From: Hexactinellida sp. DTS-2022
Lineage: Eukaryota > Porifera > Hexactinellida
Direction: 5' to 3'
Assembly: GCA_028753945.1 (NCBI GenBank)
Contig: JAPNXP010000010.1
Coordinates: forward strand, 189,042 to 253,041
DNA: 64,000 nucleotides
Both the position numbers and the translations under genes were made by a program. Below, piece after piece: positions 4,091 through 39,700 of this stretch. The notes beneath the pieces are model-generated. The model did not search any database and had not been told where the DNA came from. It saw only the letters and a list, made by a program, of their open reading frames with translations. Every line of letters starts with the position of its first letter. Within the stretch, counting starts at the first letter, position 1.

Positions 4091-5533
4091 CTATATCTCA
4101 GAAGAGTGGCAGTGCAGACAGACCCAATCGGCCCCAGATCTCTGCCATACCCGAGTCTCCTTGAAGCTCCTAACATTCGTGTGTACACCGCAACCATTGC
4201 TAGACTCCCCGATACACACACAGATGTACGCGATACAAACCGCCTCTGGGCTCAGTGTGTGGAACACTGGCTGTATAATTGAGTGTCTGTGAGATTGAGC
4301 TGAGCAGACAGTAGCTGCCAACGGCTTATCTCTCGCAGTAATTATACTCGGGTAGCCAGGTAGAAACTCTGTCGACTTATCACAGATAGCAGTGGTGTCA
4401 GTGTTGAGTAACTTCTGAGTTAAATCTAAGATCTGTTTTTCTATAGAAACAGTATCAATAGACAGCCTATCCATTGAAGCATGAGGTAGTATTCTGAGTG
4501 GGGATTTGGCTGGGCTGGCCGCTATTGAACTGAGAGGTCCTAAATCGACACTCCATCGGTTAATAGCCATTATGCTATGAACTGTGTTTTTAAGTTTCCG
4601 CTTAGCAGTGAATCTTTTGAGGGCCCCAATGGTTTCTGCTCTATTCTCGGTGCTAGCGATGCTATTCCTGTCCCTGACCCAAACGTGAGCCAGCAGACCC
4701 GAGGCAGGCGGCCTCTGGTCCGGGTCGAGCGACAGCATGGACCGAATCACGTCTCTCCCTTTGGGGGTCACGGAGTCCCATTCGGGGGAGTGGAACTCGT
4801 ACCTCCCGCTTGTAATGCTGGCGAACAACTCCCGTTGGTTCTCATGCGAGAAGGGCGGATACCCACACAGTAGAATGTACAGAATAACCCCACACGCCCA
4901 AATATCGATTCCCCTTCCATACTCCTCCCGATTAATTATTTCAGGGGAGAGATAGCTTAGAGTGCCTGCGAATCCAAACCAAGATTTAGTTTGTCCCTCC
5001 AGCTGTAACGCCAAGCCGAAGTCTACAAGCTTAATCCAAATCCCCTTTGATTGTGAGACAAGCAGCAAGTTCTCTGGTTTCAAATCTCTGTGTACAATCC
5101 CTTTGTGATGGCAGTGATCCACAGCCTCTAAGATCTGCTGAATGCAAATGCTGGCGTCTCTCTCTGTGTAGTAAGATCGCTGTGTTATTTCCTCAAACAG
5201 GTCACCGCCTGAGAGGTAGTCTATAACCAGAAATAATTGGTTTGTGTCTGTGTAAAAGTCGTGAATACGGACTATGTTTTTGTGGTCAAGTTGTTGCAAG
5301 ATATCGATTTCCTTCTTTAGGTACTTCCTGTCCTGTTCACTTGTTTGAGTTTTCTTAACGATTTTCATAGCAAAAGATTGTCTATTGCTCTTAAGCGTAC
5401 ATCGCTTAACAACACTGAATTTCCCCTGGCCGATTTCTTCATTAATATCATAACGGATGTAGAATTCTGATATATCTTTGTCTAAGAGAGTAGAGTTCAT
5501 TGCTAATGTTTCATTAGTAAAGACAGATGCCAA
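4091..5533 (-). CDS. CAMK2: Ca2+/calmodulin-dependent protein kinase II
   Basis: Intronless 480-residue Ser/Thr kinase. The kinase domain spans about 28-286: glycine loop GQGKFSVV, catalytic lysine K57 (FAMKIV), HRDLKPEN at 148-155 and DFG at 171-173. The regulatory segment has NRAET, whose Thr301 corresponds to the Thr286/287 autophosphorylation site, and RFTAKRKLKNTVHS, the calmodulin-binding autoinhibitory helix. A C-terminal association (hub) domain is recognisable from IEKQILDLTQKLL, VCIAYICV and KETRVWQR (about 363-476). The central part of the hub seems about 20 residues shorter than in vertebrates and poorly conserved. The linker is short (about 325-360). Role: Ca2+-dependent holoenzyme kinase. 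The start uses the first ATG; a second Met lies at residue 12. Confidence 0.93.
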   Translation of the reverse strand: MASVFTNETLAMNSTLLDKDISEFYIRYDINEEIGQGKFSVVKRCTLKSNRQSFAMKIVKKTQTSEQDRKYLKKEIDILQQLDHKNIVRIHDFYTDTNQLFLVIDYLSGGDLFEEITQRSYYTERDASICIQQILEAVDHCHHKGIVHRDLKPENLLLVSQSKGIWIKLVDFGLALQLEGQTKSWFGFAGTLSYLSPEIINREEYGRGIDIWACGVILYILLCGYPPFSHENQRELFASITSGRYEFHSPEWDSVTPKGRDVIRSMLSLDPDQRPPASGLLAHVWVRDRNSIASTENRAETIGALKRFTAKRKLKNTVHSIMAINRWSVDLGPLSSIAASPAKSPLRILPHASMDRLSIDTVSIEKQILDLTQKLLNTDTTAICDKSTEFLPGYPSIITARDKPLAATVCSAQSHRHSIIQPVFHTLSPEAVCIAYICVCIGESSNGCGVHTNVRSFKETRVWQRSGADWVCLHCHSSEI

Positions 5534-5667: not shown

Positions 5668-8600
5668 TCAAAGGCTCTCATCGAAGCTTGAGCTCATATT
5701 CCGACCTCTTAGTACCTGCTTCTTCAAATTGGCAATCATATCATACTGTTTGGATATTAAATCCTTTAGTTCATCAAAGTTCTTCTCATTGGAATCAAAT
5801 TTGCTAGCAATTTCGCTATCATCTCCTCTCCCCATTAAATCTAACTCTTCGTTGCAATTCGGGGACACCAGATCGATGACATGCTTCCATACAACAGAGA
5901 TTGCCCCCAGTCTGTGTCTACAGGGGTACTCTATTAGCACACGATTCTTCATATCTCGCTTCACCCACTCAGGAATCAGTCTATCCATATTCCCAAAGAA
6001 TATTATCCGATCTACCACTCGCTTCAAGAACGCACCCTCCCTCACATTAGCGATATCTCCTACGGCCAAACCGATCAGCAAATTGGTGAGAATAATCGTC
6101 ATAAGAAGCCCAGCGAATATCAGGAAGAAGTACACAGTCCCTTTGCTTGGGAGCTGCCCTTCAGTACTATCCGCGTATGCGAAATCGGTAACGAGTCCAA
6201 AGCCAGGCTCCCCTAGTAGCATCTGAAACACGGTTAATATCGACCTTTCTACATTTCTATGTTCTACTATTACTGGAGATAGTAGTATGTACAGTGCAAA
6301 TGCGAAAGAACAAACTACCAACAACACAAGTGGAAGCATGAAAATCACGGTTTTTAACACAGCAATTAACATGCGGGTGTAGAGCGCGAAAATACCATAT
6401 TGTCCGATGTAAAACAAAAACGTAATCCAACCGAAAAACAATGCGAACGCCCCAGCCCCCCATATTGGACACGGCGTGTGTAACGGCAGAAACACGAGTG
6501 TAGTTAGATAGCAGAGCAACTCTGCCAGGGAGTGAATCGAGATTATGTAACTCAGCTTGTGTTTGGCTAAAAAGATGCCAGCAATCAACAGCCCTAAATA
6601 ACCCAAAGCCAACGCATCCAATACTCCTCTGTAAATATAGTAATTTCTGTTATCCAAATAGGTTGAATTACCAGATAAGTTAACGCTTGACCAGAAGGGA
6701 GCAGAACACGTGTACATCGGTCTGTATACAATCACGAACACGGAGAGTAATACGATATACACTAAGAAGAAACTCAGACTCGTAGCATAGAAACTGCTCC
6801 CATAACGGAACCACTTATCCTGCAGGAACTTGCTTACAAGCGGGTGGCCCAGTAAGTTCCTACGCACATACTTTCTCATCGTGTCTAGAATATACATCTG
6901 ATCTACTTTCTCGTACTCAAACAGAGTTTCAGTTGCTCGCAGCGTTGAGCTTATCGAGAAACTTATAGAGCTGGAGCCTTCATTCGTGCTGTTCACAGAG
7001 ACCCCGCTAGAGCCTAACGAAGGCGTCTTGGACATGACCGGGAGATTAGTCGGGGGGACCAAATACTTAAAGTTGTATTTAACCCAGTTCTCTTTCTTGA
7101 TGTCGTTGAAAGAAGAGTTTTCTATGGACTGGTCTAGCACCATTTTAGCTAGCGCGGGCATGCGGATAACCAGTGCCGCGAATGGAGGCGGCTGCGAAGT
7201 GGCCAGTACATCCAAGGCTTCTTGCCAGCGTTTGTGTTTCAGAGTAGTAACAACGACATTAGAGTGGTCGTATACAATAGCGTCGTAGAAGAATGTAGTG
7301 CCTTCGTTGTTAAGCGTGATAGCCGCTTTGCTGTCCAGGAGGAAGTTAACTATTTGCGCGTGCCCCTGGCAGGCCGCTACGTGGAGCGGAGTGTTTCCCT
7401 CGTGATTGCATTTGTCCTTTGCGTGTGGGAACGATTCTAGCAACACCTGAAGTATTCGCAGGTAGCCGAACTTGGCAGCTGTCGCGAATGGCGTGTAGCC
7501 CACTGGACAGTTGTGGAGAATAGCTCCGTACTTAAGCAGGAGTTTTAGCACCTCAATGTTCCCGTTTAATGCAGCCAGATGTAACGGGGTGAGTCCTGAA
7601 TCGTCGTACTGATTCATTATGCTCTTGCCTACACGGAAAATGTCCTAATGTATTTACCTTAAATATTCTAGTTAATATATACCGAATTTATAAATGTATC
7701 GATTGTAATATTCTAGTTAATATATACCGAATTTGTAGTTGTCCTCAATCAAGAACTGAGCCATCTGGTAATGCCCCTTCTCTGCAGCAATATGCAAAAG
7801 ATAGTGTTTTTCTGGTGAATTAATCGCACTACATTTTGGTGAAAGAATGATTAGTTGTTTTAAGGCCTCGAGTTTGTTGTATCTAACGGCCACCTGGATA
7901 GGTTTCATATTCTCACTGTTTTGTATGCTGGCCAGCGTGCACACTTTCTCGTGTGACAGGATCTTCTCAATAACGTTAACGTTAGGCAGTCGCAGAGCCA
8001 GATGTAGGATGGTGTCTCCATTCCCATTCAGCGAGCTGTGAGGGAATACACATACGTTATATAGCATTGTAGACACACTATACTTGCATTAATACGAACA
8101 CGGAAAAGCGAAATTTCAGTTAAGGCTACAAATTTTAATTCCCCTAACTTATACAAATGAATGCAAGTGACTCCGGTTAATACAAATTCCAGAATTATAA
8201 AGACGGTCCCCTGGTGTTCGTATTAACGAGAGTCTACTGAGTTTGTATGCTTACAAGAAGTCGGCTCCGTAGTCGAGTAGTTTGGTAAAACAGCTCTCGG
8301 AATTCAGACGGACAGCTATGTGGAGCGGAGTGTCCTCACTCACTCCGATCTTAATGTTGGGATCAGCCCCAGCCCCCAATAGGATATCAGCTCCCTTTAA
8401 GTTTATAGCCACGATAGCTCGTGCCAGGCCGGTCTTACCCTCTTGATCCAAGGTGTCCAACTTGCTCCTATCCACTTCCCTATTGTACGGAATTTGTATC
8501 AATCAATAGCATTACTCACTATGATAGCTAAACTAATATACAGTGAACTCCCGTTATAACAAAGTGGGATATAACGAAATAACCGCTTATAACGAAATGG

Positions 8601-10379
8601 AGATTTTCCCCCAGAACACTAAACGAATATCCGGATATAACGAAGGATTTACAATCACTCCGTTATAACTATAGTTCCCTGTCTAATACTCACTCGACCA
8701 TAACCTCCATGCAGCTGGCCTCAGACATAGAGGCGGCTATGTGGAAGGGAGGCAGCAGCTGTCCCTGAGTGCAGAAGGGATCTGCTCCGTACTGGATCAG
8801 GAGTCTAATGACTTCTGTGTGTCCCCCGTCTACGGCGTTATGTAGGGGAGTGGAGTTCTCAGAGGAAATGAAGCCAAGGATGTCTTCGTTGGAGTATCCG
8901 TGCTCTAAAGAGCCTTTGAATATCAGCCTCAGTACCTACAGTGCGAGTATAATACAGTAGAACCTCGTTAGTCGAACACCAGGGGACCGTCAAAATGCGT
9001 TCGCCTTATCCGGAATTCGTATTAACCAATTTCATTTCTATTGAAAAGGCTTTGAAGGGGATTGAAATAATGTTCGTATTAACCTGAATTCATATTAACC
9101 TCGGTAGTACGAACACCAGGGGCCGTCATTGGCCCGTCAACAATATTATTTCTATTGAAAGGCTTTGAAGGGTACTGAAATAGTGTTCGTATTAGCCTGA
9201 ATTTATTATAACAATGTCGTACTAACGAGGTTATACTGCGCTGTGGTACCTTTGCAGACCCCGCTCTGGCGGCAGTGTGCGTGGGAGTGTTGTTGTCCGA
9301 ATCTCTGGCGCAGAGACGGAACTGCTGGTTCAGATTCCCACACAACTTCCTTTTAATCCCGTAATCAAATATCTCAGTGCACATCTCCAGGTTGTCGAAC
9401 TCTGCTGCATAGTGCAGTGGTGTCTTATCTATATCATATTATACGTATATTCTCTCTATAGCATATTATACGTATATTCTTTCTATAGCATATTATACAG
9501 TCACTAGTCACTCGGTATAAAGGTACATATAACTTACTCTTAGGCCCCGGAATAACAATGTCAATGTCATACCCCGCATTCAACATAGTTTTAAAATAGT
9601 CTACTCTATTGAGCACCACAGCTAAGTGCATGACTGACTCCGACTCGTTGTTAAGTTTCTTGTAGTCGGCCCCGTGGCCTAGCAGCGCCAGCATGCTCAT
9701 ACTCGCGTTGTGAATAGCAGACCAGTGTAGGGGGGTGTTGCCTAATTATACACAAGATGAATGGTAAGTTAACGAATGTAAGTGTATTCATACCATCGTC
9801 ATCGGTAGCTTGGATATTCGCTCCCAACTCCGCCAGGGTGTCAATAACCGCGCTCTGATCAAATTCAACCGCGAAATGAACCAAACTGGCACCCTGCAGC
9901 TGATCCCTTAAGCGCAGGAATTGCGGTCTCTCAGTTATAAATTCCTTTAAGCCATCGCAGTTGCCGGTCTTGATTAAAGAGTACAAGCTGTCTGCCTGGT
10001 TCCTAACAGCTGAGTCGAGATTTCCTAACAGCAGGTAGTTCTCGAACCCGGAATCGGCTACTATAGGAATATATTAACTCAACACTGCTACTAATAATTA
10101 CACTACAGTAAACTCTCGTTATAACGAAGTGCTTGGGACCTGTTAATCCCTTGTTATAAGCTGATAATAATTAATGCATTTAGTGCTCTGGGGGAAATTT
10201 GCTTTCGTTATATCCGACTTAGTTATAACGGGAATTTACTGTATGTAGTATAATATACCTGTTTTTCTACGGGAGAATCTAGAAAGTTTCTGCTTTAAGG
10301 TTTTACCACTGTCCGTTCTGTTCCTATACTCTCGGTACCTATTCATGTCTGCTGGGATGGATTGGCTATTCTTCTTCAT
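5668..10379 (-). CDS. TRPA1: TRPA1-type ankyrin-repeat cation channel
   Basis: Eight exons: 10379..10259, 10060..9794, 9741..9538, 9428..9250, 8935..8694, 8479..8255, 8035..7728 and 7628..5668. All junction phases agree, giving 1,168 residues (human about 1,119). A long N-terminal ankyrin array (TPLHxAA motifs in nearly every exon) is followed by six membrane segments, a pore with QMLLGEPGFG, and TNLLIGLAVGDIA after S6, then a coiled-coil tail. The linker motif YNFKYL is shared with human TRPA1. At the positions I align to human Cys621, Cys641 and Cys665 the residues are Pro, Ser and Pro, so classical electrophile sensing is doubtful. The last exon is almost 2 kb while the others are 120-310 bp. 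Introns 1, 4, 5 and 6 carry MITEs. Role: non-selective cation channel at the plasma membrane; its stimulus is unknown. Confidence 0.93.
8073..8239. mobile_element. Diverged pogo-like MITE in TRPA1 intron 6
   Basis: The right end GTTCGTATTAACGAGAGTCTACTG matches family A ends; the left end (tgcattaatacgaacacgg) is more decayed. The left boundary is approximate. Confidence 0.6.
8541..8681. mobile_element. Pogo-like MITE, family B, in TRPA1 intron 5
   Basis: It starts CAGTGAACTCCCGTTATAAC after a TA and ends in a decayed complement (GTTATAACTATAGTTCCCTG). Family B siblings are at 10106, 27482 and 61784. Confidence 0.75.
8955..9238. mobile_element. Family A MITE, double-length, in TRPA1 intron 4
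   Basis: It starts CAGTAGAACCTCGTTAGTCG after TA and ends TCGTACTAACGAGGTTATACTG. The body contains the family core (TTTCTATTGAAAAGGCTTTG) twice, so it is a tandem or nested pair of units. Confidence 0.75.
10106..10241. mobile_element. Family B MITE in TRPA1 intron 1
   Basis: It starts CAGTAAACTCTCGTTATAAC and ends GTTATAACGGGAATTTACTG. TA duplications are at 10104-10105 and 10242-10243. Confidence 0.85.
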
Positions 10380-10636: not shown

Positions 10637-11707
10637 TTATTGCTTGATTTTTTCCGCAGATTTCGACAGCTTTTCAATATCTCGCGCTTTTGTATCGTTT
10701 GATTTCCAAGCAAGGACTTTAGTCTGAGGCGTGTGTTTAATGAAAGAAATACTTTTCTTCTTATCGACCGATTGAGGCGTCTCGACCTCCCTTAGCTGTT
10801 CTGGCTCTTCAATCTGCTCTACATACGAGCTGTTAACCTAATTATAAATAGAACCATACATAAGTATACCAACTCATTTCAATAATATTTCAAACCAGCT
10901 CTGGGAGAATTCTTAATTCGTGGATTTTCTGTGTGTAAAAGTGTTTCCAGAATCCAAGCACATTCATAGGCAATTGGATGTCCGCATACCAACCGATAGA
11001 CCGGCACTTTATGTGCCATATTGAGTTGTCAGACGCGAGGTAGTTCCAATACCAACATACCTATAGTGTTGCTATGTGTTATCTCTGTACAGAACCGGTT
11101 TTTCTAACTAACTATTTATTCTAAATGTGTAGGAAATTCCAATTTTGTTTTATTTCAATCGGTTTATTCCAACTATCGGATTTTTCTTACTTTATTCCAT
11201 GCAAAGAATTGGTTAGAAAAACCGGTTTCGACTGTATAATGATACCAATATACTAATTTAATTACCTGAGCAGCCCTGCAAAGGGATTTGGGGTCTAAAT
11301 ATGACAGAATCCTTATTGATAGGAATTTTAAGAGCGTTCGAGTGAAATCAACAGACTGTATAGGTGTTACATATTTTAATAGGAAATTAGTATAGTAGAG
11401 CTCTTCTTCATTACACAGTCCCAGGCTGTAAGTAATGAAGTCTCTCCTCTGAGCTTCTGACCAAGCCTTGAGCTACAACACAGCAGTTATAACAGCGGCT
11501 ACTACAGTATTGGTATGCATAGGCATAGTCCTTACCCAATGGGAGAGTAGCTTCATCCGTTCATTGAAAAGCTATAATTAAAATGTCTGTAATTTTATAG
11601 TAATTCTACCCTCGAAAACAGTGGATTACCTGTCTATTGGCCACTTGGTCATTTATAGGGGTCCAAGAACTTTTTGCTCTCTCAATAGATTTCGATCTTT
11701 GAAGCAT
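10637..11707 (-). CDS. FBXO16: F-box protein, FBXO16-like
   Basis: Exons 11707..11630, 11571..11536, 11472..11266, 11060..10896 and 10837..10637, all phase 0, encode 228 residues (human FBXO16 about 290). The N-terminal SSWTPINDQ followed by LLSHW and WSEAQRRDFI matches the conserved FBXO16 start. The F-box follows: LKFLSIRILSYLDPKSLCRAAQVCWYW. Downstream, WHIKCRSIGW and FWKHFYTQKIHEL also align. The C-terminal tail is basic and unconserved. F-box proteins recruit substrates to SCF ubiquitin ligases through SKP1; no substrate can be inferred. It lies 232 bp downstream of the glutaminase stop and 257 bp upstream of TRPA1, all the same strand. Every exon-intron junction lies between codons. Confidence 0.83.
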
Positions 11708-11939
11708 TATAAGTTGTTATGACTATGGATTAATAATTATATGAGGAGTTTGCTACAATCCAATGTATACCTGAAACTATAAGGTTGCTAAAACAAGTTT
11801 AATTAATTGGTAATCTTGACAGGATATCAGTGCAGAAAAATTGATTGATTAAATACGTGTTAAGGTAAGTTAGTTCATTAGTTAATTAAGTGGAAATGGT
11901 AAAATAGAGAATGTAATGCGATTAAAAAGTTGAGTCATT

Positions 11940-14900
11940 CTATAAGTTCGCATCTTTCGGTTTGAGATATTCTTTAACGTCTTCGTGTCCGAAAAGAATC
12001 GCATCTTTAATCGGTGTCTGGCCCCACCTACAGATTGATTCCCAATAAATGCTAATAAACGAATGTATTGTTAATTTGTACTACCTGTCAATGGGATTGG
12101 GATTGACTCCAGCTTTCTCAATCAGAAACTTCACAATAGAGAGTGCACCTAACAGAACAGAGTCATAGCTATACCCGCGTGTCGCCACTGGCTTACCTTC
12201 TGCCGCTGCAATATGCAGACAGGTCCGTCCGTCGTAATCAGCAGCGTCGAAGTTATACCCAGCTGAGAGGTATCTACGGTGTTAAACAGAGTTAATTAAA
12301 TCTACAAATAAAGCAGTAATAAATAGTTAGGTTACCGGTGCATTGAGCCCAGAGATCCATGTTGCACAGCAAACAGCATTGTAGTAATTCTGTGTTCCTA
12401 TTGATATTAATATGTGTGTTATAAAGCGAGTGTTTTAGAGAAATCAGCATTAACAAACCTCAACGGAGTTCCTCCTAATCCGAGGGTTCTTGTGATCTTT
12501 GTCACGCGAAAAGTCATAGTTATGGAAATTGAACCTCTCAACTAGTTTCTACCAAACAACCCCAATAATTACACAATAAACTTCAACTCTACCATTGACA
12601 AACCTCCATAAACTTGACCCCCCTAACGCTATTGCTCCTGGAATCCAGAGGAGGGGACCATGTACATATCCCCATCACGTTAGGGATCACAGCCATTACA
12701 AATCCCGATACAGAAGACTTAGCAGGAAACCCCACCTATAAGCACAAAGCGATTATTAAGCAGAATATCTTAAACAGAGATAGAAAGGGAGCATCCCTAT
12801 ATGTAGCGGTCTATTTCTAGACGATCTATAAAAACCCAATACAAACTAAGCCAAAAAAATTTAAACCGTCTCTAAATTATGTAGACCAAAATCCCTGCCG
12901 TCTATGGGTAATAGTAATTTATGTTAAGCTTAAGAAACCTGGTCTATTTCTAGACGGTCTACATATAAGTTATTTCATAGAAAGGAGAGGAGAGTTAACC
13001 TTGAAAGCAAACATGCCGGAGTAATTGTACAGTCCGCATGAATTCATCATGCTGAGTGTGTCTCTAACGGCAATGGAGTTAAGAATCTGAGAAAACAAAC
13101 AGTAAACAGAAGATATCATACATTGTACTTGTAACGCTAAATACTCACTCTTTCTCCTGTCAAGGGACAAACGCCGTCATTAGCAAGTGAGCCTGCGATT
13201 ATTGACAGTTTTCCACAATCCACAAGTGAAGAAGACAGCTATAATTAGTAGCATTTCAACAACCAATAAGCAGAATCTATCAAATCCTACCTGGAAGTAA
13301 AGGTCACATATCTCTTTGAGTTTTATGTTCTTAGCATAACACTATAGATAAGAAAATCAAATTGGACAGAAATTTATGTATTTATTAGTTCCTATTTACC
13401 TTGTTTTCTCGGAGAAAGTATGCGAGAGCATAGTTCCTATCAGCGTGTTCTCTCTCGTAAATAAACCTATGCAATTCCAGATCAGAGACAGTAATTAATG
13501 TAATTATATCCAAAATGTAATAGAACTTACGTTGGTAAATCTATAACTGTGTTTCCACCTCCACACAGCTTGTTCAGTTGGCTTATCATCTAAATGTATG
13601 GAATAATTAAAGCTATTGTAATAGTGCAAACAAGTACAAATAGTAAATAGGATGTCTCACATAGCCGATCCTATCTGGGAGTGGTTGGTTGGGCTAATAA
13701 AAAGAAAGAATTTACAAATCAGAATTAATATCACAATCATATATGATTAATTACTCACTGCTACTAATGATGACAACACCAGGGCTCCAGAATTTATCAT
13801 TGGATTGTGAGGCAGGCCTAGAAGAATATCAAACTTATTAATTACATTTCTCAATTAGCAACAAGTAATGCAGCCCCCTAACCTTTGGCGTTCAGCATTA
13901 ACTTATCGTACCCGAACCCACTCGGTTCATGTCCTATGAAACTATGCACCAAATCTTCCCCGAGGTCTGTCAGTGCTATTGCGTACATGAGAGGATTCAC
14001 AACTTGCTGGATCGAAGTCTTATCGTCGTAGTCTCCAATAGAGAGCCTCTGTCCGTCCACAGTGCAGAGCGACAGACCGAACTTATTCGGATCGAGTCTG
14101 GCCAGTTGTGGGGTGTGGCTAGCGTTCTCTCCCCCGCGGATGTTCTTGACGTCATAGAACAGATCGGTGAGCTCCTCGGCGAAGAGATCGAAGTCGTTTA
14201 TAACGCTGCGGCCCTGGAAAGTGCTCACAATCACATCGAGCACCGGGTTGATTAAACTAAGACACACAACATTAATACAATATTGGTATAGCTAATTCCA
14301 TGACATACTCTCTGAACGTTTGGAATGTACACTGGCCGTCATGCTCTCTGATTATAACATCAATCTCCTTGGTGATAGGGGCGAACCTCGGGTCTTTGTT
14401 TACGATAATCCCATGAGACTCCAGTTCCTGGGACAAACAATACATTAGCAATAATAATTAATTAATTAATTAATCTACATATGTGTATAAACAAAGTACC
14501 TCGATGAACTTGAGTATGCGAATCTTTCCGTCATCCGCGTAAATGTGGAACAGAATCTCATCGATATCTTTGGGCTGCTCGTTGTCGGAGATCTGGAATT
14601 TCTGACTGAAAGACTTTTCCTTTGTCAGAGAGCGAAAGTAGCCAAGATTCTTATAACTGTACAACATGTAAATAAACAATTGATAAAACAGTTCAAATGA
14701 GTGTTAGGGGCCGTTCAAACGCTACGTAATGATTCCAAGGGGGTGGGTGTTAAATAATGTGTGACAAACAATAATTCTTGTACTACAAAAGTGACCAAAA
14801 AAGTGTGACATAAGGAGGGGGGGGTCTAATTTCGGGAATTTGCGTTTCGTACGTTTGAACTCTTACCTCCTCTTCTGAATGCGAGGGAGGGGACTGTCCG

Positions 14901-15007
14901 GCTTGAACAGGGGAGAGCAGACCCCTGCTGGAATGAACTGGGCCGTGAGAGCGTGGCGGAGTCGACAGATCGTGCTCACGTGTGTCAGCGAGGTGGTAGC
15001 ACGCCAT
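11940..15007 (-). CDS. GLS: Glutaminase family protein with ankyrin tail; catalytic dyad missing
   Basis: Seventeen exons with consistent phase: 15007..14867, 14649..14500, 14427..14309, 14256..13883, 13817..13759, 13693..13661, 13589..13531, 13466..13400, 13341..13291, 13238..13149, 13086..13000, 12735..12604, 12548..12459, 12397..12336, 12273..12197, 12148..12085 and 12027..11940; 580 residues. The glutaminase domain is clear: STFQGRSVI, CTVDGQR, HNPMINSGA, EREHADRN, CGLYNYSG and VGFPAKS. It is followed by ankyrin repeats as in animal KGA-type enzymes. The segment aligned to human QSCVKPLKYAIA reads QQVVNPLMYAIA, so Ser286 and Lys289, the nucleophile and its partner, are Gln and Asn; human Tyr249 appears as His. 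The equivalents of Asn335, Glu381, Asn388, Tyr414, Tyr466 and Val484 remain. The fold is probably intact but hydrolysis unlikely. No mitochondrial presequence is evident at the N-terminus used; an upstream exon cannot be excluded. Confidence 0.9.
12798..12966. mobile_element. MITE family F in glutaminase intron 11
   Basis: Both ends carry the TAGACCGTCTA-type motif: left tatgtagcggtctatttctagacgatctata, right ggtctatttctagacggtctacata. A close relative lies at 56981-57128 in the citron kinase gene. Boundaries are approximate. Confidence 0.7.
14706..14861. mobile_element. MITE family G in glutaminase intron 1
   Basis: Inverted ends GGCCGTTCAAACGCTACGTAA and the complement of GAGTTCAAACGTACGAAACG. 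The core contains TTGTACTACAAAAGTGACC. A relative is at 31341-31493 in ABCC10. Confidence 0.65.
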
Positions 15008-15399
15008 AGCGAGTTCATATCCACAAGCTAATCGATAGAACCAGGAGAGAACAGATAATGAGAGTCGAGTAGATTGAAACAGTTTACAGTAGTCGGCTTA
15101 TAATGTTAGGTTGTACGGGCATGCTCTAGCTTTATAACTTTGCAGGTTGTTGTTGTTATTATGTAATAGCGATTATGCAGTTTAGCAGACTTATGAAAAT
15201 GTAATTATAGAATATACATTTTCTTATAGTAATGACAGTGCCAAACCGATTCGAAATAAACCTATCATAATAACTCGTCATTATAACGTACATATAAACC
15301 AGACAGTACTCCTACACAATCAGTGAATCAAAAAGGAGACTTCATAATCATACACCATGTTGCAATTCATATAATTATATTAATGACATCGAATTCGTG
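15008..15399. other. Intergenic region between glutaminase start and CDK5RAP3 stop
   Basis: An AT-rich 392-bp gap containing no ORF or repeat that I recognise. It presumably holds the glutaminase promoter and the CDK5RAP3 3' UTR. Confidence 0.5.
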
Positions 15400-16818
15400 T
15401 TATAAACGGTTAATTTCTCCCACAATATTAACTTCTCTATTCTCAAGTAATGCTGGAGCTTCATTTTCAAATAGTTTTTTAAGATATTTGCATTCTGCGA
15501 TAATCTGTTCGATCCTTTTAGTGTAGCTTAGTAGTGTTCTTACCAAACTTGTTAACGTTTGGTTAACAACTTCCATCTTATCTCCATTTTTCCTGATGCT
15601 AGCTTTCAAGTTGATAATTTCCCCTTGAAGTCTAAGGCTATATGGCTTAGAACGTAATAATTTATAAGCCTGCTGTATTTGGGGTGAATTCAATCGAATC
15701 TTAACTTGTTTCAATGTTAGCAACATCTCTGAAATTTGAATCGTATCTACTTTCTCTAGCTCTTGCATTAACAGGGTTGTCTCTACTAATTGCGATAGGG
15801 AAAATACGTCTCCAATTGAGTCTGATATTTCCAATTCTCTCTGTTTTAAGAAATGCTCCAATTCAAATAATTCGTTTATAAACTTGTGCCGAAATGCAAG
15901 ATCATTAACAAGTGGGAAAGTATCAATTCTAGTTGCACAATCTGCTATATTAAGTTCTTCTTGTGGATCTACAATTTCGATGCCATAACTAAGCTCAGCG
16001 ACAGAAGAACCATGGGACTGCTCATAAGTGATTCGCGAGTCGAGGAAGCTAAATATTTCCGTTAACAGAGGCAACATTTTGTTGGTTACCAAATCTTCGT
16101 TGTTTTCTACATGCCAAGCTTGTATAAATTTAAGATAGTAGTCTTTAACTGGTCGAAGATTATTCACGATATCTGATTGCAACAAATCTAACATTTGACG
16201 TTTTCCATCATCAATCAAACCAGAAATCGCGAAATTCCACACTTCCTGTTTGCTAAAGTCGCTTTCAACACTCAGTCCCAATCCAGAGCAAGTTCTACTA
16301 TACCTTTCGTTCTGGCTGTCTCGGAGACGAGCTAAGGAATTTATTTTCAGATTCGAAGCTTGTATTTGTTGGTTGATTCGTTCCTTCTGCTTGCGCCAAT
16401 AAGGGAGCTCGTATTTCAGATTATTCGCGATTAAGTACCCGCTCTCTCCCACATGCAACCAGCCCTTCTTGTATTCATTCAGAATATTAAACCAGGTTTT
16501 GACGTTTTGAGAGGAATAAGTGCCAAGTAGGTCGGTTGCATCTCCTTCTTTGGAGAGGAAATATTCGAACACCAGCTTACACGCAAAATAAGGCGCAAAG
16601 CTACATTCAGACACACCATAGCCAACTTGCAGTTGGGGTATGCTCTCAATTAATGAATCAGGGAGGGAAGAGATTTGTGGGGAAATTAATTCCTCTTTAA
16701 TTTTCTTAACCGCGATTAGCCAATCTCTCTGTAAATGGTTCCTCTGTACTAACCATTCAGATATCTTCATGCACTGAATGTCAATAGGAAATGTGGGCAT
16801 AGGGAACGCTTCAGCCAT
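15400..16818 (-). CDS. CDK5RAP3: CDK5RAP3 (C53/LZAP), UFMylation and ER-phagy factor
   Basis: Intronless, 472 residues (human about 506). The N-terminus PIDIQCMKISEWLVQRNH matches the family start. YSSQNVKTWFNIL, LPYWRKQKERI, NELFELEHFLKQRELEIS and C-terminal REVNIVGEI align with conserved stretches. In animals the protein works with the UFL1-DDRGK1 UFM1 ligase at the ER. The middle disordered region of human CDK5RAP3 carries several IDWG motifs that bind UFM1 and ATG8-type proteins. Here the corresponding region (about 265-300) is short and no DWG or IDW occurs anywhere in the protein. Upstream of the ATG is a TTCTCGTGTAG sequence that could be a splice acceptor in the 5' UTR. Identification is strong despite divergence. 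Confidence 0.85.
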   Translation of the reverse strand: MAEAFPMPTFPIDIQCMKISEWLVQRNHLQRDWLIAVKKIKEELISPQISSLPDSLIESIPQLQVGYGVSECSFAPYFACKLVFEYFLSKEGDATDLLGTYSSQNVKTWFNILNEYKKGWLHVGESGYLIANNLKYELPYWRKQKERINQQIQASNLKINSLARLRDSQNERYSRTCSGLGLSVESDFSKQEVWNFAISGLIDDGKRQMLDLLQSDIVNNLRPVKDYYLKFIQAWHVENNEDLVTNKMLPLLTEIFSFLDSRITYEQSHGSSVAELSYGIEIVDPQEELNIADCATRIDTFPLVNDLAFRHKFINELFELEHFLKQRELEISDSIGDVFSLSQLVETTLLMQELEKVDTIQISEMLLTLKQVKIRLNSPQIQQAYKLLRSKPYSLRLQGEIINLKASIRKNGDKMEVVNQTLTSLVRTLLSYTKRIEQIIAECKYLKKLFENEAPALLENREVNIVGEINRL

Positions 16819-24572: not shown

Positions 24573-27434
24573 TTAGCTCGTGTTAGGACAGCTGTTATTA
24601 CTAAGCCATTCCTCAAACCACTTTTCCAAGCTGTCGAGATTTTCGCCCAACCACTGGATGTTAGATTTGATTTGCTCCAGCCCAGATTTGAGCGCCACTA
24701 GACCAGACCCTGCGTCTCTGTCTGCGAAAAACGACTTCACTTCGTCCAGTTCATTCTGTGTCGTAAAATGACCGATCGAAGCAGTGATTGCTCTCCCAAA
24801 GCTGAGCGACTGACCGTACCTCTTAAACAACTCGTCATAGTTATTCTTAAAGAAACTCCAGAGGTAAGGCCATGCGTACTCATTGTTAGCCAGCCTCCGC
24901 AGCACAGTCAGGCCGTCCTGACTGCGTACCTCTTTCAGACTTCTGCTCAGGTACAGCTGGATCAGCCACGGCTGCTTCGCGTATGCGAGTGCCGACAGAA
25001 TGGTAGCCTGTTCAGTGGGGTTCTGAGAGGTAACGTAAATGTTCCATAGGAATTCCCACTCCTGAGAGCCCCCCTCCCGGATCCCAGCTGTGAGTATTAC
25101 ATCCTTAAGGTCTGGAGTCGGCTCCTTGCCAGCATTCATATAGGACTGGAATTCTGTGTAAGCTGAAGCAGCAAACGTGCTGTTACCGTAAAGAAGCGCG
25201 TATTTCAATAGCAAGCTCCTCTTCAGGTTGTCTAGGTGACCGTCAATGGCCCCAGGGAAACTCGCGGCAGCTGACTGAATTTGAGAATCGAGCAGACATA
25301 GAATGTACTCTGAGAACTTCCCCTCCACTCGGGAGGTGCTTATCTTCGCGTGGATCTGTGCGAGAGAGAGCAGGCCTACCCTAAGCGCAACATAGTCGGT
25401 CTCTCTCTTCAGATAGGACACGAGGTCTAGCGCCTGCACTGGGGTTATAAACCCGGCTATGGACAGGGAGACTGCGTCGTCTACAAGGTTGGCGCGATCA
25501 GCTGTTTGTAACGTCTCATGACTTGTGAGGAGTAGATTAGTGAGCGCATCCCATTGCTGCTGATGGTAGTTAACACGGTAGAAGCCTAAATCACCGAAAT
25601 TAGCTTTTAACCAGGAACAAGTCTGATGTCCAGTCTCAATCTCATCAGACTCCGTATCAATCCAAGCTGTGTTAGAAGGATCCGCACTGTTGTTGGTAAT
25701 GAAATTAAACGGGACACTCCAAATGTAGTCGAATTCAGAAAACGCGAAATCCTCTGGGTTGGTAGGGACTATAACAAACCGCTGCTGCTGAATGCTTAGC
25801 TTAGAACACCCGTCCACTAGTGTCACGTTAAGAACAGGGTACCCGCCCTGTACCGTCCAGGTGTCCATCACAGAAGTGAGGTTATACCCCGGGTCACTAA
25901 CTACTGCCTGTAAAGCAGCCCATAGGTCAGAGCTCTCAGCGTTGCCATAACTATGTGCAATCAAATACTTGTGGAGTCCCTCCTTGAACTTGTCCATCCC
26001 CATAAACCCTACGATCATACGGATAAGCGAGGCGCCTTTCGAATAAGAAATGGTATCAAACAGAGCGTTTATCTGGCTCAAGGTCTCCGCCGGCTGAATA
26101 ATCGGATGTGTCTCGTTATACCCATCTACCTCCAGAGCTAAAGAAAGGTCCCCGATTATGAAGAAGTCTAGATAGTTCCATTCAGGGTGACTCGTGTTAG
26201 TGCCTAGATACTCAATGTAGGTAGCAAAACCTTCGTTAAGCCACAGGTCTTGCCACCATTGCATCGTCACGAGGTTACCGAACCACTGGTGAGCCAGCTC
26301 GTGAGCGATTACTAATGTCACCCGCTGTTTGTTCGATGCGGAGCTCATACCTGGTGTCACCAAAAGCGCAGTTTCGCGATAAGTAATCAGCCCCCAGTTC
26401 TCCATGGCACCTGCTGCAAAATCAGGGATTGCAACCAAATCCAGTTTCTTAAGAGGGTATTCTATACCGAAGAAAGTCTCGTAGTACTGCAATACGATTA
26501 CGGTTATGTTAAGAGCGTATTCAGTGGCGTTAACAAGGCTGGGACGGGACCACACACTCACATTAACTCTGTCGTCAACTATTACGGACATAGATTTAAA
26601 CTCACAGACAATGAATGCCACTAGATACGTGCTCATGCGGACAGAGGTCGCGAAATGTGTCGCGATATTCCCATTCACATTCTCCTGGCTCATAACTTGC
26701 ATATTGGAGAGTGCAGTGGTGTCCGGAGGGTGCACAATGGTTATGGTGAAGTTAGCCTTCATTTCAGGCTCGTCGAAGCAAGGAAACGCCTTTCTAGCAG
26801 CGGTAGGCTCAAACTGAGTCGTGGCAAGAATCACAGCCTTTCCATCTTCAGTGTACGTGCTGTTGTAGAACCCAGAGAGACCGCCAGAGTATAAATAGTA
26901 GGAGAACTTGACAAATACCGTGTACACTCTATCGGTAACGAAGTCCCCGTCTTCATTTGTAATTATTAAGTAATCGTTCTCAGTGTAGTTACTCCAGGAG
27001 CTCTTAACAGGATCGTTAGAATCAAACACTTTTACATCAGATATGTTCATAGTCTCACTGTACTGCAGTAGAATCCAAGAGCTCTTTTCTTGTAGGCAAA
27101 CTGTGATGTTCTCTTCTCCATTTACAGTCAGGGCGTCGAGATCTACAGCCAGCATAATGTCATAAGTCTCCGGCTTGATTGAGGAAGGCATTCGCCTGGA
27201 TTTCCATGGCTCTGTGTTTGAGTTCTCATTGACAACTCGGTGAAGAACGAGTGCTAATACGACGGCACACAATACTACTATTATCGTGACAAGTAATAGC
27301 AAGAGAATTAGACAGCGAGATAGCTTGTGCGAACGCTTGCTGGTTAGTTTCCCTAAAATAACGTCCTCTGAATATAGCTTCTTCTTGTCAGTGTGAGGCG
27401 TGAGGGGGGCAGATGCCTCGTCACTACTACTCAT
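24573..27434 (-). CDS. ANPEP: Membrane alanyl aminopeptidase-type M1 metalloprotease
   Basis: Intronless, 953 residues, a single-pass type II ectoenzyme. The cytoplasmic tail is residues 1-40 and the membrane segment about 41-65 (LILLLLLVTIIVVLCAVVLAL). The ectodomain has GAMENWG near residue 340 (exopeptidase motif). The zinc site HELAHQW near 376 is followed by LNEGFATY, which supplies the third ligand. YSKGASLIRM carries the catalytic Tyr. Many N-x-S/T sequons are present, including NNS near the C-terminus. The C-terminal ERAP1-like helical domain is complete. It trims N-terminal residues from peptides outside the cell. Animal M1 paralogues (ANPEP, ENPEP, TRHDE, LNPEP) are not separable by eye, so the symbol is provisional. 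Confidence 0.9.
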   Translation of the reverse strand: MSSSDEASAPLTPHTDKKKLYSEDVILGKLTSKRSHKLSRCLILLLLLVTIIVVLCAVVLALVLHRVVNENSNTEPWKSRRMPSSIKPETYDIMLAVDLDALTVNGEENITVCLQEKSSWILLQYSETMNISDVKVFDSNDPVKSSWSNYTENDYLIITNEDGDFVTDRVYTVFVKFSYYLYSGGLSGFYNSTYTEDGKAVILATTQFEPTAARKAFPCFDEPEMKANFTITIVHPPDTTALSNMQVMSQENVNGNIATHFATSVRMSTYLVAFIVCEFKSMSVIVDDRVNVSVWSRPSLVNATEYALNITVIVLQYYETFFGIEYPLKKLDLVAIPDFAAGAMENWGLITYRETALLVTPGMSSASNKQRVTLVIAHELAHQWFGNLVTMQWWQDLWLNEGFATYIEYLGTNTSHPEWNYLDFFIIGDLSLALEVDGYNETHPIIQPAETLSQINALFDTISYSKGASLIRMIVGFMGMDKFKEGLHKYLIAHSYGNAESSDLWAALQAVVSDPGYNLTSVMDTWTVQGGYPVLNVTLVDGCSKLSIQQQRFVIVPTNPEDFAFSEFDYIWSVPFNFITNNSADPSNTAWIDTESDEIETGHQTCSWLKANFGDLGFYRVNYHQQQWDALTNLLLTSHETLQTADRANLVDDAVSLSIAGFITPVQALDLVSYLKRETDYVALRVGLLSLAQIHAKISTSRVEGKFSEYILCLLDSQIQSAAASFPGAIDGHLDNLKRSLLLKYALLYGNSTFAASAYTEFQSYMNAGKEPTPDLKDVILTAGIREGGSQEWEFLWNIYVTSQNPTEQATILSALAYAKQPWLIQLYLSRSLKEVRSQDGLTVLRRLANNEYAWPYLWSFFKNNYDELFKRYGQSLSFGRAITASIGHFTTQNELDEVKSFFADRDAGSGLVALKSGLEQIKSNIQWLGENLDSLEKWFEEWLSNNSCPNTS

Positions 27435-33700: not shown

Positions 33701-36700
33701 GCTCCAACTGCTGGTATTCTCTGTCCTTAAGCTCGTCCAGGGAATAGTTCTTATCGGCGTCCAAGCAGTTAAGATCTCCACACACCACAAAAGGCACCAC
33801 GACCCTATTGATGCCTTCCAACTGGGAGAAGTCGGGACACGATTCTGGATTCAGAAGAGGGTTGGCCATATTCGGAACGTAGCCCACTGGAGGAGAATAG
33901 TCCTGACAAACAACAAACGCTTCGATGCTTGAATTCCTGCTTGCTCGCGGTTTCGCACAGCTCACGCGTTTGAAGAACATCTGTAACTGCATGAACAGCA
34001 GAGACACATCTTTCCCGCGAAAAATCTTAGCTACAAATGTCCCACCCGTTTTCAACACGTGAGTAGTGATATTAAGCGCAGCGAGCAGCAGCTGCGCTTG
34101 TATGTACTCATCAAGGTCGTGTATACCCGTGACGTCAGGCGCGCCATCGCACACAACAACATCCGCATGGTTCCCTTCAAAGTGTGCGATTATTTCCTTA
34201 GCAGTCGACTCGGATGTAATGTCCCCTTGTATCTGCGTTACGCCAGGTAACGGGGCCATCGCCTGGAGGTCTACAGCTACGATTTTAACACTGGAGTCCT
34301 GGTCTGGTCTCAGTTTACGCGACAGCACTTGCGACCAACTCCCGGGAGCAGCGCACAGGTCTACAACACTTTTAGAGCCCTCAATGACCTTATACTGGTC
34401 GTCTATTTGTATTAGCTTGTAAGCACTACGCGCTCTCCAACCCTCCTCTTTGGCAAGGCGATAGTATATGTCGCGTTTGTCCTTGGATGTTTTGCCCATT
34501 CTAGTTTAGCTAAGTAGTGTAAGCTTTATCAGAAATTCGAGAAATTAGCGTATTGTTTGCAACGTTTAGCATTTTTGCTGAAAACTATATTCAGTGGCTT
34601 TTTTTTCTAAAGTACGTACTAGGTATTAACCATTAAATAGTTGCACTCCTTACAATCTAAACTTGCATAATACTTTCATTTCTAGGAAATACGATTAATT
34701 CTGTCAGAAATTTCATATTAGACAAAATAAAGCAATCACGGCTACACCATGTGAAGAAAATTAGTTATATATAATAACTAGTATACGTTAATCATTAATT
34801 ATGTCAATACTACAACAGATAATATATTTGCAAATGGAGAAACTTCAGCTTCAAAACTATGTACACGAAATGACATAAAGTTTCATTGGGTTTCATAGAA
34901 TCAACTTTAAATTCGACACTTTTATGTTAAATCAACTCGGTTGCCGAAAGCGAGACTATCATATGAAATATAGTTCAAGAAATGTGTCGAATTACATTTT
35001 CAATTCTTTGCAAATTATTTTGTTCATAACCCTTTAGTTTGTTCACTCAGCGAATCAAGACCATTTCTACCATTTCAGGGGATCAGGTAACCTTATATAA
35101 ATGTGTGGTAATTACTGAACAGAGAAATCCTATATCATAAATGTGGGGAATAGTGTATCTGTAGGCCTAACATGTGCATTGTCTGCCAATATAGTGAGAG
35201 TGTATTATAATCTTATAGCCAATTTAGAAATTCAAAACTGAAATGGACGGGAGTAAAGCGCTAAACGGTCTGAAAGGTTTATTCCAGTCTGCGACAGATC
35301 GGATAAAGGGGACAGGGCCGGGGGGAGTTAACGGGGCCGCACCGGTACAGAAGTATCAACCGGTCGAGAAGCGACACGTTGAGAAACTATGGAAGAGTAT
35401 GGATAAAGTGGTCACACTCTGTTCCAACCGAAAATTGTCACTAAAAAATAGTCCTCCTTTTATCCTGGACATCCTGCCAGATACGTATCAACACCTAAAA
35501 CTGATCATGCACGCTTATGAAAACGACTCAACTTCCCTCGCTGACTTTTTCTATTTCCAAGTGTTCATCGAGAACTTCAACACGAAATGCAAGCAGATTA
35601 TAAAGCTATTCTCGACAGCCAGAGACCAGATATACAACGAGCTCAGCGACGCCAGGCGAACTCTAACCAAGATGAGTCTCATATTCAGTCACATGGCCAC
35701 AGAGCTTAAGGCAATGTTTCCACCGCCGACCGGCAAGTTCCTAGGCGTAGAATTTCGCATTACGAAAGCAGACGCAGGTGAGTTCTGGCACACGAACTTT
35801 CCCGGGCAGTCCCTGGTCACTTGGTCCGACTTCCGAAGTAAGCTCGAGCTAGTGCATCTAATCAACGACCAAATGGAGGCGTCTGCGCTTAAAACTACAA
35901 TGGACCTGTCTCAGTCCGACCACATATCAGTGTTCGAGTTCGATGTGTTCACTCGGCTATTCCAGCCCTGGTCTAACCTCCTCGAGAACTGGAACAACCT
36001 GGTTGTAAAGCACGTCGGATACAAGGCATTCCTGACTTACGACGAGGTGAAAGCGCGTCTAAGCGAGTTCATAAACAAACCGGGGACCTACATATTCCGT
36101 CTCTCCTGTACGCGACTAGGGCAGTGGGCAATCGGTTACGTCACGCACGACGGGAACATCCTACAAACCATCCCGCAGAACAAATCTCTCATTCAAGCAC
36201 TCCTGGAGGGATCCCAAGAGGGGTTCTACCTCTTCCCAAATGGAGAGGATCATAATCCTGATCTGAAAGCTGCGGTTACTGTCACCTCGAAGGACCACAT
36301 CCGCGTGACGCAGGAGCAGTATGATATATACTGCGAAATCGGTTCCACATTCCAGTTGTGCAAAATATGCGCAGAAAGGAACAAGGACGTTAAACTCGAG
36401 CCTTGCGGTCACCTCATGTGTCAAGAGTGCCTGCACTCATGGGTGGACTGTGGGGGGACGAAGTGCCCCTTCTGTCGAGAGGATATTCGCGACAGTTGCA
36501 ATATCGTAGTGGACCCGTTCCATTTCCAGGCAGAGTACTCAGCTGTGATGGACAATGACCACGACCCAAACGGCAGGAGCCGTCTCCTCCCCAAAAGCAG
36601 CCGTCCCCTCCCGAAGGAGCCCCAGTCCCTGTTCGACGAGGATGAAGATATTCTGCCCGTAATGCGAGTGGGGTCCATAGAGGACTCGAGCGACGGTATA

Positions 36701-39700
36701 GCGGTCCCGCCCCCCCTCCCCAGCAGGGGACAGAGGCGTGTAAATAGCGTGTACGACCCGAAGCGAGCGCAGCAGACTGGATCAGCTGACTCAGCTCAAC
36801 GCCAGGACTCCCCGACTCTAGGGCTAGCAGAACGAAGCAAAAGCATCTCGGTTGAGAGGAGCACTCGAGTTAAAAAGATAGCTAATAAACAGCTGTCGGA
36901 CTGTGACAATCCCTTAGATAATAGCGAGCTAACAGGAAGCGAGAACAAAGTAGTAGCAGGCTATGCTAGTGTAGGCAAGAAGAGTGCATCCAAGACACCG
37001 AACAATCTCCCAGTACATGACCAACATGCGCCGAGTCGCCATCTACAAGAGTCAGAGAGAAATAATTTCGAAATATACGACGAACCAATCTTACATTCAG
37101 CTCTAGGGTCCCCCACACGAAACGCTACTAACAAAACTGACCAGAAGAAAGATATAGACAGACTCACGTACATCGAAGTGGCTGTATTGCAAAATCCAAA
37201 CTACGGAGATTTGACAGGAATACATGATGAAGGAAATCGTACGCTAAAGTACAGTGACGTAATAGCTACTGACGTCAATGGGGAGTGTGTCGTAGCGCTG
37301 GCCGAGCCGATACCCAGTACAACGAAGATACATTCGTTAAGCAGCCCAAACACCCCGCTGATCGTACCAGCTGAAGAAAGCGAAAAGAAAGGAGAAACGC
37401 CCCAAGATTCCACTGTACATAGCAAGCCTAATATTAAAAGGAGCGCATCCGATAATCCAAACCCTTTTTTGATTGAATTCGATGATGTTACTACTAATCT
37501 TCTCAATAAAGACCCATTCAAGGAGACTGACACGATTCAGGAATTAGAAAGAGAATTCATCAACCCATTCTCCACAGAGAATGCTACCATTACGAGAACA
37601 ATCAATCAGATAGAGCCTGGCAGCGATGGCAACTATGTTAACCTAAAACCCCAGAACATTAAAGAGATGCAAAAAGAGGATCTTTCGATGCCACCGCTCC
37701 CCCCTAAGCAGGTGAAAGCCCCGGTCAAGAAGGAAACCTACCAAGCAGCCATGCAAGAGTTGAAGGCACTGGGCTACCCAGAGGACGAAGTTATACGTGC
37801 AGTAGGCGTAGCAAAGAACAACATTGAAATGGCAAAAAGTATCCTCGAAGCTTTCTGCCCACTCCAGAAGAAATAAGAAAATCCTATAATAAATACGTAT
37901 AATGATTGGAGTTTTACTAGAATCAATGTTTTGTATGTATACCGGTTACGTTATCTGCTTTTCAATGTTACTGCATTCTTACTTTCTCTGTTAAGTGTAC
38001 CCTCCTAAACTAACTAAATGTCAGAAATTTTAACTTGTAAATGTATGATATTTAGAGATACTTGATTGCATTAATTAATGGAATTAATTATATGGGTGTA
38101 TATTGTGTTTGAGGGTTAGCTAACCTGTGTTGTATTAACTGTTGAAAAGGTTTGAGTATTATTTTGCGATATATTGGCAGTTGTCCAGATGGAGAGCCAG
38201 ACATCTGTGGCTCTCTTAGAAGACTCCATTAATAGCATTGAGAGTAGGATTAGGAATGCTAAGATATGACCGACTGATATCCAATAGGACCAGTAAATCT
38301 TGAACCTACACAACACAAGTTATAATAAGCAACTACAGTATAACCTCGTTAGTACGAACACCAGGAGCCATTAAAATGTGTTCGCCTTATCCGGGATTCG
38401 TATTAACCAATGTCTTCTGTATTGAAGAAGCTTTGAAAGGGGCTGAAATAGTGTTCGTACTAACGAGATTCTACTATAAAGTGAATATAGAGGAACCTAC
38501 TTGACTGATCCAGTACATTTCTCTTCCTTTTTAACTAGCATAGCGTCTTCTCCTTTCAAGTTATTCTCTGTTTCCTCTTCCCTTACTGTCCCACGGTTAC
38601 ACGGCTTATTTCCTTCTGGCACGAATTTCTTATCCACGGATGGCAACACCGTACCAGGGGACCCTGCACTAACGATTTCCCCTTGGTTCACAACCAATAC
38701 AAAATCCACAGATTTGAGTAACTCAACACGATGCGTGATTAAAACCCGAGTCCTATGTGCCAGCAGTTTGTGAAAGCAATTATTTACGATGTGTTGCGCT
38801 ACGTTAGCGTCCACAGCAGACAGTGGATCGTCTAATAGGATACAAGGTTTCTGTTGGTAGCAAGCTCTCGCTAGGCTAATTCGAGCCTTTTGCCCTCCGC
38901 TGAGGTTAATTCCATTCTCACCAACCTGTAACAAGCCAGAAAACAATAAAATGTATACAAAAACATAAATTCCTATAGTTAATATTTTGGCTCAGGCTTC
39001 TCTCCGATTAGTGTAATAACATAAACCTTAAATTCCCACTTTACGTATAACTAATCACAAGCCGTATTAAAGTAAATTGATAATTAATGTGAATCGTTAC
39101 GTTACAAGTCTCCTGCTTACTTCTGTGAGGTCACCAGCGTGTGCCAGCGCGAAATCTGGCAGCAGAGCGCAAGCACTCACCACCTGCTCGTACAAGTCAG
39201 GTTTGTACCGAAGTCCGAATAGTATATTGCTTCTCAAGGTGCCGTGTTGTATCCAGCTCTCTTGGGAGACAATACCGAAGCCTTCGTTCAAATACTTATC
39301 TATGGGATAATCGTATTAATTAAATGATTAGATTGTATCATGCATGTTACTTATCAGTTATCACTCACAGTAAACAGTTCCATCTACCTTATTCAGCTCC
39401 ATTGTTAGGGCAGACAAAATTGAACTTTTCCCACTTCCAACTTGTCCTATGATACCAACAAACTGCCCAGAATGCACGATCAAATTGATACCCTTTAAAA
39501 TTGGTCTTTCAACTGGATTCAATAACTGCTCTCTCTCAGAGGGATTCCTTCTATTATTTACTTGATTATCGTCCCAAGAGAACTTCCCGTTCTGTATGCA
39601 GATTACTACATTAGGATCTGCAGCTAGAAGAATAATTCAAAGATTCTTACAGCACAATAGGAAATCTTAAAATACCAATGTGACTAGTGGGCTATGCTAG

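Follow-up and report, generated by a model that had tools for sequence, protein, structure and literature searches.

Can a glutaminase gene stay whole after losing the residues that hydrolyse glutamine and, if so, what role might its product have? The question is raised by a GLS gene in a stretch of 64,000 nucleotides from a hexactinellid sponge, referred to here as the window. A sequence-only reading had described this gene as coding for a glutaminase with an intact fold but no catalytic Ser-Lys dyad, either a maintained pseudoenzyme or a diverged paralogue beside a normal gene. We call the window gene C2, and its two paralogues on other contigs of the same assembly C17 and C9. Residue numbers are those of human glutaminase.

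Gene structure and catalytic positions of C2

C2 lies on the minus strand at 15018-11940 of the window and comprises 17 exons, whose 1761 joined bases encode 586 amino acids (Table 1). The exon model was based on splice signals and homology. All introns are of the GT-AG type (16/16) and the sole stop codon is the terminal one, confirming the earlier statement that 17 exons join in frame without a stop. The limits previously given for exon 4, which is flanked by ...tgtcttag and gttagg, proved exact. The first acceptor considered for exon 13 was rejected because of a frameshift; an AG 7 bases upstream gave the in-frame model. The Pfam glutaminase profile PF04960 matched C2 over its full length (1-286/286) with 307.4 bits (cut-off 27), and Pfam ankyrin repeats were matched as well. 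The EF-hand-like N-terminal domain scored slightly below the Pfam cut-off (23.1 vs 23.7 bits). In a phmmer search the best solved relatives were human GLS2 (455 bits) and GLS (438 bits), and C2 is 41-42% identical to the human glutaminases over ~500 amino acids. The first 35 residues, encoded by exon 1, contain three Arg/Lys and no Asp/Glu.

Table 1. Coordinates of features in the window (exons, codons and intron are those of C2)
Feature	Position	Strand	Detail
Exon 1	14867..15018	-	start codon; presequence-like N-terminus
Exon 2	14500..14656	-	N-terminal helical domain, EF-hand_14-like
Exon 3	14309..14427	-	N-terminal helical domain
Exon 4	13883..14256	-	lid loop, former catalytic motif (QQVVN), activation loop
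Exon 5	13759..13817	-	PHNPMINSGA block; Asn335 kept
Exon 6	13661..13693	-	splice model
Exon 7	13531..13589	-	splice model
Exon 8	13400..13466	-	Glu381, Arg387, Asn388 kept
Exon 9	13291..13341	-	Tyr414 kept
Exon 10	13149..13238	-	splice model
Exon 11	13000..13086	-	Tyr466 kept; Met465Leu
Exon 12	12604..12735	-	Val484 kept
Exon 13	12459..12548	-	glutaminase part ends here, exactly at human 550|551 splice point
Intron 13	12398-12458	-	phase 0
Exon 14	12336..12397	-	start of ankyrin tail
Exon 15	12197..12273	-	ankyrin repeat
Exon 16	12085..12148	-	ankyrin repeat
Exon 17	11940..12027	-	ankyrin repeat and stop codon
Tyr249 lid position	14115-14117	-	codon CAC = His
Ser286 nucleophile position	14004-14006	-	codon CAA = Gln
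Lys289 general-base position	13995-13997	-	codon AAT = Asn
CDK5RAP3-like uninterrupted frame	15400-16818	-	directly upstream of C2
Protein kinase uninterrupted frame	4091-5533		weak match, at its C-terminus, to the CaMKII association domain (E 1.1e-6)
M1 aminopeptidase uninterrupted frame	24573-27434		953 aa
Cbl uninterrupted frame	35243-37876		877 aa
HECT-domain uninterrupted frame	47200-50364		1054 aa
GTTAATACGAACAC copies	142-272, 8088-8227, 9070-9196, 38348-38464, 56484-56497

The 17-exon C2 gene stands near long uninterrupted frames for an M1 aminopeptidase, Cbl and a HECT-domain protein. The window also holds nine copies of GTTAATACGAACAC (at most one mismatch), vs 0.01 expected; six of the nine are arranged as three pairs in inverted orientation, with spacings of about 100-130 bases, and may belong to a family of short DNA transposons. 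As to gene content, the genome gave 16 homeodomain matches and two nuclear-receptor DNA-binding domains, and a search with the Antennapedia homeodomain gave 3 matches, the best 46% identical. Innexin gave no match, in this genome or in the control genomes. Counts of this size are typical of sponges, and the gene content accordingly points to a sponge.

In exon 4 of C2, QQVVN takes the place of human QSCVK. The codons confirm the replacement of Ser286 by Gln and of Lys289 by Asn, and also that of Tyr249 by His (CAC). Alignment to human and bacterial glutaminases showed Tyr249, Ser286 and Lys289 in all references, namely in both human enzymes, in C17 and in 80/80 bacterial sequences aligned (the 80 of 202 relatives most similar to C17), whereas C2 lacks all three. 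The equivalents of Asn335, Glu381, Asn388, Tyr414, Tyr466 and Val484 are kept in C2 by alignment, as had been claimed. Asn335, Glu381, Arg387 and Asn388 are present in each of these 80 bacterial proteins (out of 202), and C2 keeps all four; note that the two seed patterns by which the bacterial set was found exclude positions 249, 286 and 289 but include Asn335 and Tyr466, so that the constancy of the latter two is partly by choice.

Fifty-nine columns are invariant across the 83 references, which comprise the bacterial set (80 of 202), the two human enzymes and C17, and C2 keeps 52 of these columns. It changes the other seven by Y249H, I250T, S286Q, K289N, S380Y, C418S and M465L, among which Ile250Thr, Ser380Tyr, Cys418Ser and Met465Leu are additions to the sequence-only reading. 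When each reference was left out in turn as a control, 71 of the 83 changed no invariant column, 11 changed one and 1 changed two, the maximum. The changes in C2 affect 3/7 catalytic or ligand residues vs 4/52 other invariant columns (Fisher p 0.03), and those in C9 affect 3/7 vs 7/52 (Fisher p 0.09), the seven residues in both tests being our own choice.

Ser286 and Lys289 form the catalytic dyad and are reported to be critical (PMC13204110). Mutation of the equivalent lysine in a bacterial glutaminase (Lys69Ala) reportedly abolished activity (PMC10159865), and Tyr249 in the lid is described as part of the substrate lock (PMC10912226). Both marks of a catalytic enzyme, the Ser-x-x-Lys dyad and lid Tyr249, are missing from C2. 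With Ser286, Lys289 and Tyr249 replaced, C2 should be unable to hydrolyse glutamine by the known mechanism, and we consider it very probable that it is devoid of classical glutaminase activity. Judged by its sequence, C2 is an enzyme fold minus the catalytic residues, i.e. a probable pseudoenzyme.

An assembly or sequencing error could in principle mimic such a loss, as could an allele or alternative exon that carries the dyad. We give this explanation hardly any weight, since several separate base changes in the catalytic codons would be required and C9, another copy, has the identical Lys289Asn. The Gln codon CAA differs from the TCC of C17 and C9 at 3/3 bases and from any Ser codon at 2 or more, and an error in one base is therefore an insufficient explanation; the Asn codon AAT differs from the AAA of C17 at one base. 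The exon 4 DNA of C2 has a single match in the assembly, namely itself. A six-frame scan of positions 11701-15200 for three S-x-x-K patterns returned two matches, none in a glutaminase context, and the alternative dyad exon considered in the sequence-only reading was not found in this interval.

Glutaminase paralogues and the history of the lysine loss

Searching all 18 contigs of the assembly (112.4 Mb) with PF04960 gave eight matches, which represent three genes: C2, C17 and C9. C17 (L010 3358-6890) has seven exons encoding 550 amino acids, contains QSSVK and Tyr249, and is by sequence a canonical glutaminase. The surmise of a normal GLS gene elsewhere in the genome was correct at the level of sequence, and C2 is indeed a diverged paralogue, accompanied by canonical C17 and a second altered copy. 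The latter, C9 (G000 contig C9:1728902-1730512; L001 1105-2715), consists of one exon encoding 536 amino acids. Its motif reads QSCIN, with Ser286 kept and Lys289 changed to Asn; it also carries Tyr249Asp and Asn388Ser and has lost Asp386. C9 is a probable second pseudoenzyme. C2 and C9 are alike in Lys289Asn, Ile250Thr, Cys418Ser, Met465Leu and the loss of Tyr249. In contrast to C2, C9 has no introns, retains Ser286, has lost Asn388 and Asp386, and sits on a longer branch. The genome would thus encode one predicted enzyme (C17) and two predicted non-enzymes (C2 and C9). One GLS enzyme is reported for most metazoans (PMC4685580), and three GLS copies, two of them without catalytic residues, are unusual by comparison.

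Local similarity between C2 and C17 is uneven. In the lid and dyad region (human 245-326) the two are 35% identical, below the identity of each to human GLS (49% and 57%); over human 471-533 they are 71% identical, above the identity of each to human GLS (57% and 60%). This pattern possibly reflects gene conversion or co-evolution. Animal-like glutaminases also occur in bacteria of several phyla (loci L011-L090, the best 80 of 202), and many of these 80 matches extend from the N-terminal domain through to the end with the ankyrin repeats, at 38-47% identity to C17.

The 16 introns of C2 and the 6 of C17 have no position in common. Intron 13 of C2 falls exactly at the junction of human residues 550 and 551. 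Human GAC chains equal KGA through residue 550 and then differ, and KGA and GAC are reported to have exons 1-14 in common before they diverge (PMC11224379). The chance that a C2 intron falls at one given position is ~1% (16 introns, ~1,760 sites), 550|551 being the only human junction compared with C2 introns. This coincidence suggests that intron 13 is very old. We infer that C2 retains the old animal GLS gene structure, that C17 passed through a retrocopy stage or extensive intron turnover, and that C9 originated as a retrocopy.

The three sponge genes form a clade relative to the human and bacterial sequences (support 100/99 with 40 of the 80 bacterial rows), with branches of 0.92 for C2, 0.81 for C17 and 1.85 for C9. 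Grouping of C2 with C9 had a support of 92/88 with all columns and of 92/52 without the catalytic columns, or 80/44 when 20 bacterial rows (of the 80) were used. In the AU test the alternative C2+C17 was not rejected (p 0.374 without the catalytic columns and 0.179 with all columns), and C9+C17 had p values of 0.111 and 0.040, respectively. C2+C9 was dropped as a proven clade because support was low and the AU test leaves C2+C17 standing; long-branch attraction involving C9 is possible.

Rare changes and synonymous codons bear on the number of losses in different ways. At the 136 columns with at least 90% conservation among 82 outgroup rows, C2 and C9 have 7 identical derived residues, and C2-C17 and C9-C17 have 2 each. 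At the 59 invariant columns, C2 and C9 have 5 changed sites in common vs ~1.2 expected (hypergeometric P 0.0009). These common rare changes, including Lys289Asn, favour one old loss of the lysine. Among the three pairs tested by shuffling synonymous codons within amino acids, C9-C17 had 36/93 identical fourfold codons vs a shuffle mean of 26.8 (85/5000 shuffles as high) and 75/194 identical degenerate codons vs a mean of 66.4 (405/5000 shuffles as high), the fourfold difference being 0.61 vs 0.76. No excess was seen for C2-C9 (19/94 fourfold codons vs a mean of 27.8) or for C2-C17. The C9-C17 excess is a weak signal, given that three pairs were tested. It fits poorly with a sister relationship of C2 and C9 and hints at two losses; it also lowers the odds that C2 is maintained and raises those of decay. 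It might conceivably stem from a later link between C9 and C17 or from gene conversion. Weighing both kinds of evidence, we think that Lys289 was probably lost once, in the common ancestor of C2 and C9, which would make the broken state old.

Constraint on C2 and its possible roles

The fraction of fourfold sites that differ between C2 and C9 is 0.80 (saturation 0.76), and their nonsynonymous pN is 0.405. With nonsynonymous sites far below saturation and synonymous sites saturated, simple decay is unlikely. Compared by exon, pN/pS in exons 3-17 was 0.24-0.57 for C2 vs C17 and 0.23-0.69 for C2 vs C9; it rose to 0.85-1.03 in exons 1-2 vs C17 and to 1.08 in exon 2 vs C9, where alignment is poor, and because synonymous sites of C2 are saturated these ratios are no formal dN/dS. 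With 32% amino acid identity to C17, exon 4 of C2 is one of the more weakly conserved. We also determined mean identity to the best 80 of 202 bacterial proteins by segment, for C2 vs C17. The values were 0.21 vs 0.20 in the N-terminal domain, 0.25 vs 0.30 just before the lid, 0.45 vs 0.45 in the lid and dyad segment, 0.43 vs 0.47 and 0.60 vs 0.61 in the core, and 0.41 vs 0.41 in the ankyrin tail. When the C17 frame was simulated without constraint, 21/300 frames were stop-free at 0.05 substitutions per site, 1/300 at 0.1 and 0/300 at 0.2 or more, with a mean of 14.4 stops at 0.4.

From these comparisons, C2 is likely to have been maintained by selection. The argument of the sequence-only reading against decay holds as far as the appearance of maintenance goes (intact frame, most invariant columns kept, bacterial-like identity). 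The measured constraint is an average over the C2 branch in one species, and its timing relative to the dyad loss rests on the C2-C9 pairing. There may have been recent relaxation after long constraint.

Slow decay would mean that catalysis became dispensable thanks to C17 and that the copy is as yet unbroken. We regard this as improbable in view of 16/16 intact introns, 586 codons without an internal stop, the 52/59 invariant columns retained, the rapid loss of open frames in the simulation, and a resemblance to bacterial proteins about as great as that of C17. It would nevertheless account for the loss of three catalytic and lid residues, the lesser conservation of exon 4 and the pN/pS near 1 in the poorly aligned first exons, and if the lysine losses were separate, that of C2 could be younger. 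Even less probable is an active enzyme with an altered mechanism or another substrate, operating through Tyr466, a catalytic residue of glutaminase, or through another residue. C2 does retain Tyr466 and most amino-acid-binding residues. However, Ser and Lys are constant in the bacterial set (80 of 202), and the bacterial Lys-to-Ala mutant is reported to be inactive (PMC10159865).

A further explanation, which we consider doubtful though better than decay, is a ligand sensor or scaffold that acts independently of the active enzyme: its pocket would bind an amino acid (glutamine, glutamate or another) but leave it unconverted, and its ankyrin tail would relay the signal. Our comparisons give this role, suggested in the sequence-only reading, no advantage over that of a non-catalytic partner of C17. 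The six pocket residues retained in C2 are consistent with such a role, as are the polar amides that stay in the pocket where Gln and Asn replace Ser and Lys, and an ankyrin tail whose similarity to bacterial tails equals that of the C17 tail. The replacement of lid Tyr249 by His and of neighbouring Ile250, invariant in the 83 references, by Thr argues against it, as does the loss of Asn388 in C9, the probable sister of C2. We lean towards the broader reading that C2 is a maintained mitochondrial-type pseudoglutaminase with a non-catalytic role, as partner or as sensor.

Predicted co-assembly with C17 and comparison with known systems

Human GAC and GLS2 are reported to be tetramers that build filaments, with activity coupled to oligomerisation (PMC10912226). 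Because the human glutaminases act as tetramers and filaments, we propose that the C2 protein would enter the same compartment as the C17 enzyme, co-assemble with it as a non-catalytic subunit and tune its activity. By analogy with trypanosome DHS and AdoMetDC, this co-assembly is the likeliest mechanism among those considered, though at somewhat less than even odds. The first 25 residues of C2, C9 and C17 contain 3-4 Arg/Lys and no Asp/Glu, a composition like that of matrix presequences. C2 keeps Arg387 and Glu397, which are paired across the dimer-dimer interface. At the phosphate contacts, Lys320 is kept, Tyr394 is changed to Phe and Lys398 to Asn. The filament residues Phe355, Phe373, Asn375 and Gln379 are altered in C2, C9 and C17 alike and are uninformative on the dead state, and neither they nor the changed phosphate contacts give a direct sign of co-assembly; loss of the filament interface was accordingly rejected as a trait of the pseudoenzyme.

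Pseudoenzymes are a known kind, and one in the glutaminase family appears to be new: among the titles and abstract openings listed from an open-access collection, a scope outside which most subscription papers fall, none described a glutaminase pseudoenzyme or a glutaminase paralogue without the dyad. GLS is described as a cancer drug target (PMC10912226), and a natural subunit with the fold but no chemistry would allow the structural role of glutaminase to be told apart from its catalytic one. In domain order (PF04960 followed by an ankyrin tail) and in the intron at the KGA/GAC splice point, C2 resembles animal GLS/KGA and GLS2. It differs from animal GLS in lacking Ser286, Lys289 and Tyr249 and in its replaced filament residues, the latter being replaced also in C17. 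A more speculative scenario, which we consider unlikely as a whole, is that C2, intron-rich and ancestral in structure, specialised as a non-catalytic subunit or sensor and gave rise to the intronless dead C9 while catalysis moved to the intron-poor C17. This would be the first glutaminase prozyme system, with glutamine use set by an inactive subunit incorporated in the oligomer.

The closest parallels are the prozymes of trypanosomatids. Trypanosome DHS is reported to form a heterotetramer with a dead paralogue, resulting in 3000-fold activation (PMC3663545), and co-assembly and activation are likewise reported for the AdoMetDC prozyme (PMC5201418). There a dead paralogue exists beside an active one in an oligomerising family, as is predicted for C2 and C17. 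In contrast to C2, for which co-assembly is a proposal, these prozymes belong to other enzyme families and have co-assembly and activation on record. If C2 is such a subunit, the prozyme concept would also hold for a central enzyme of mitochondria.
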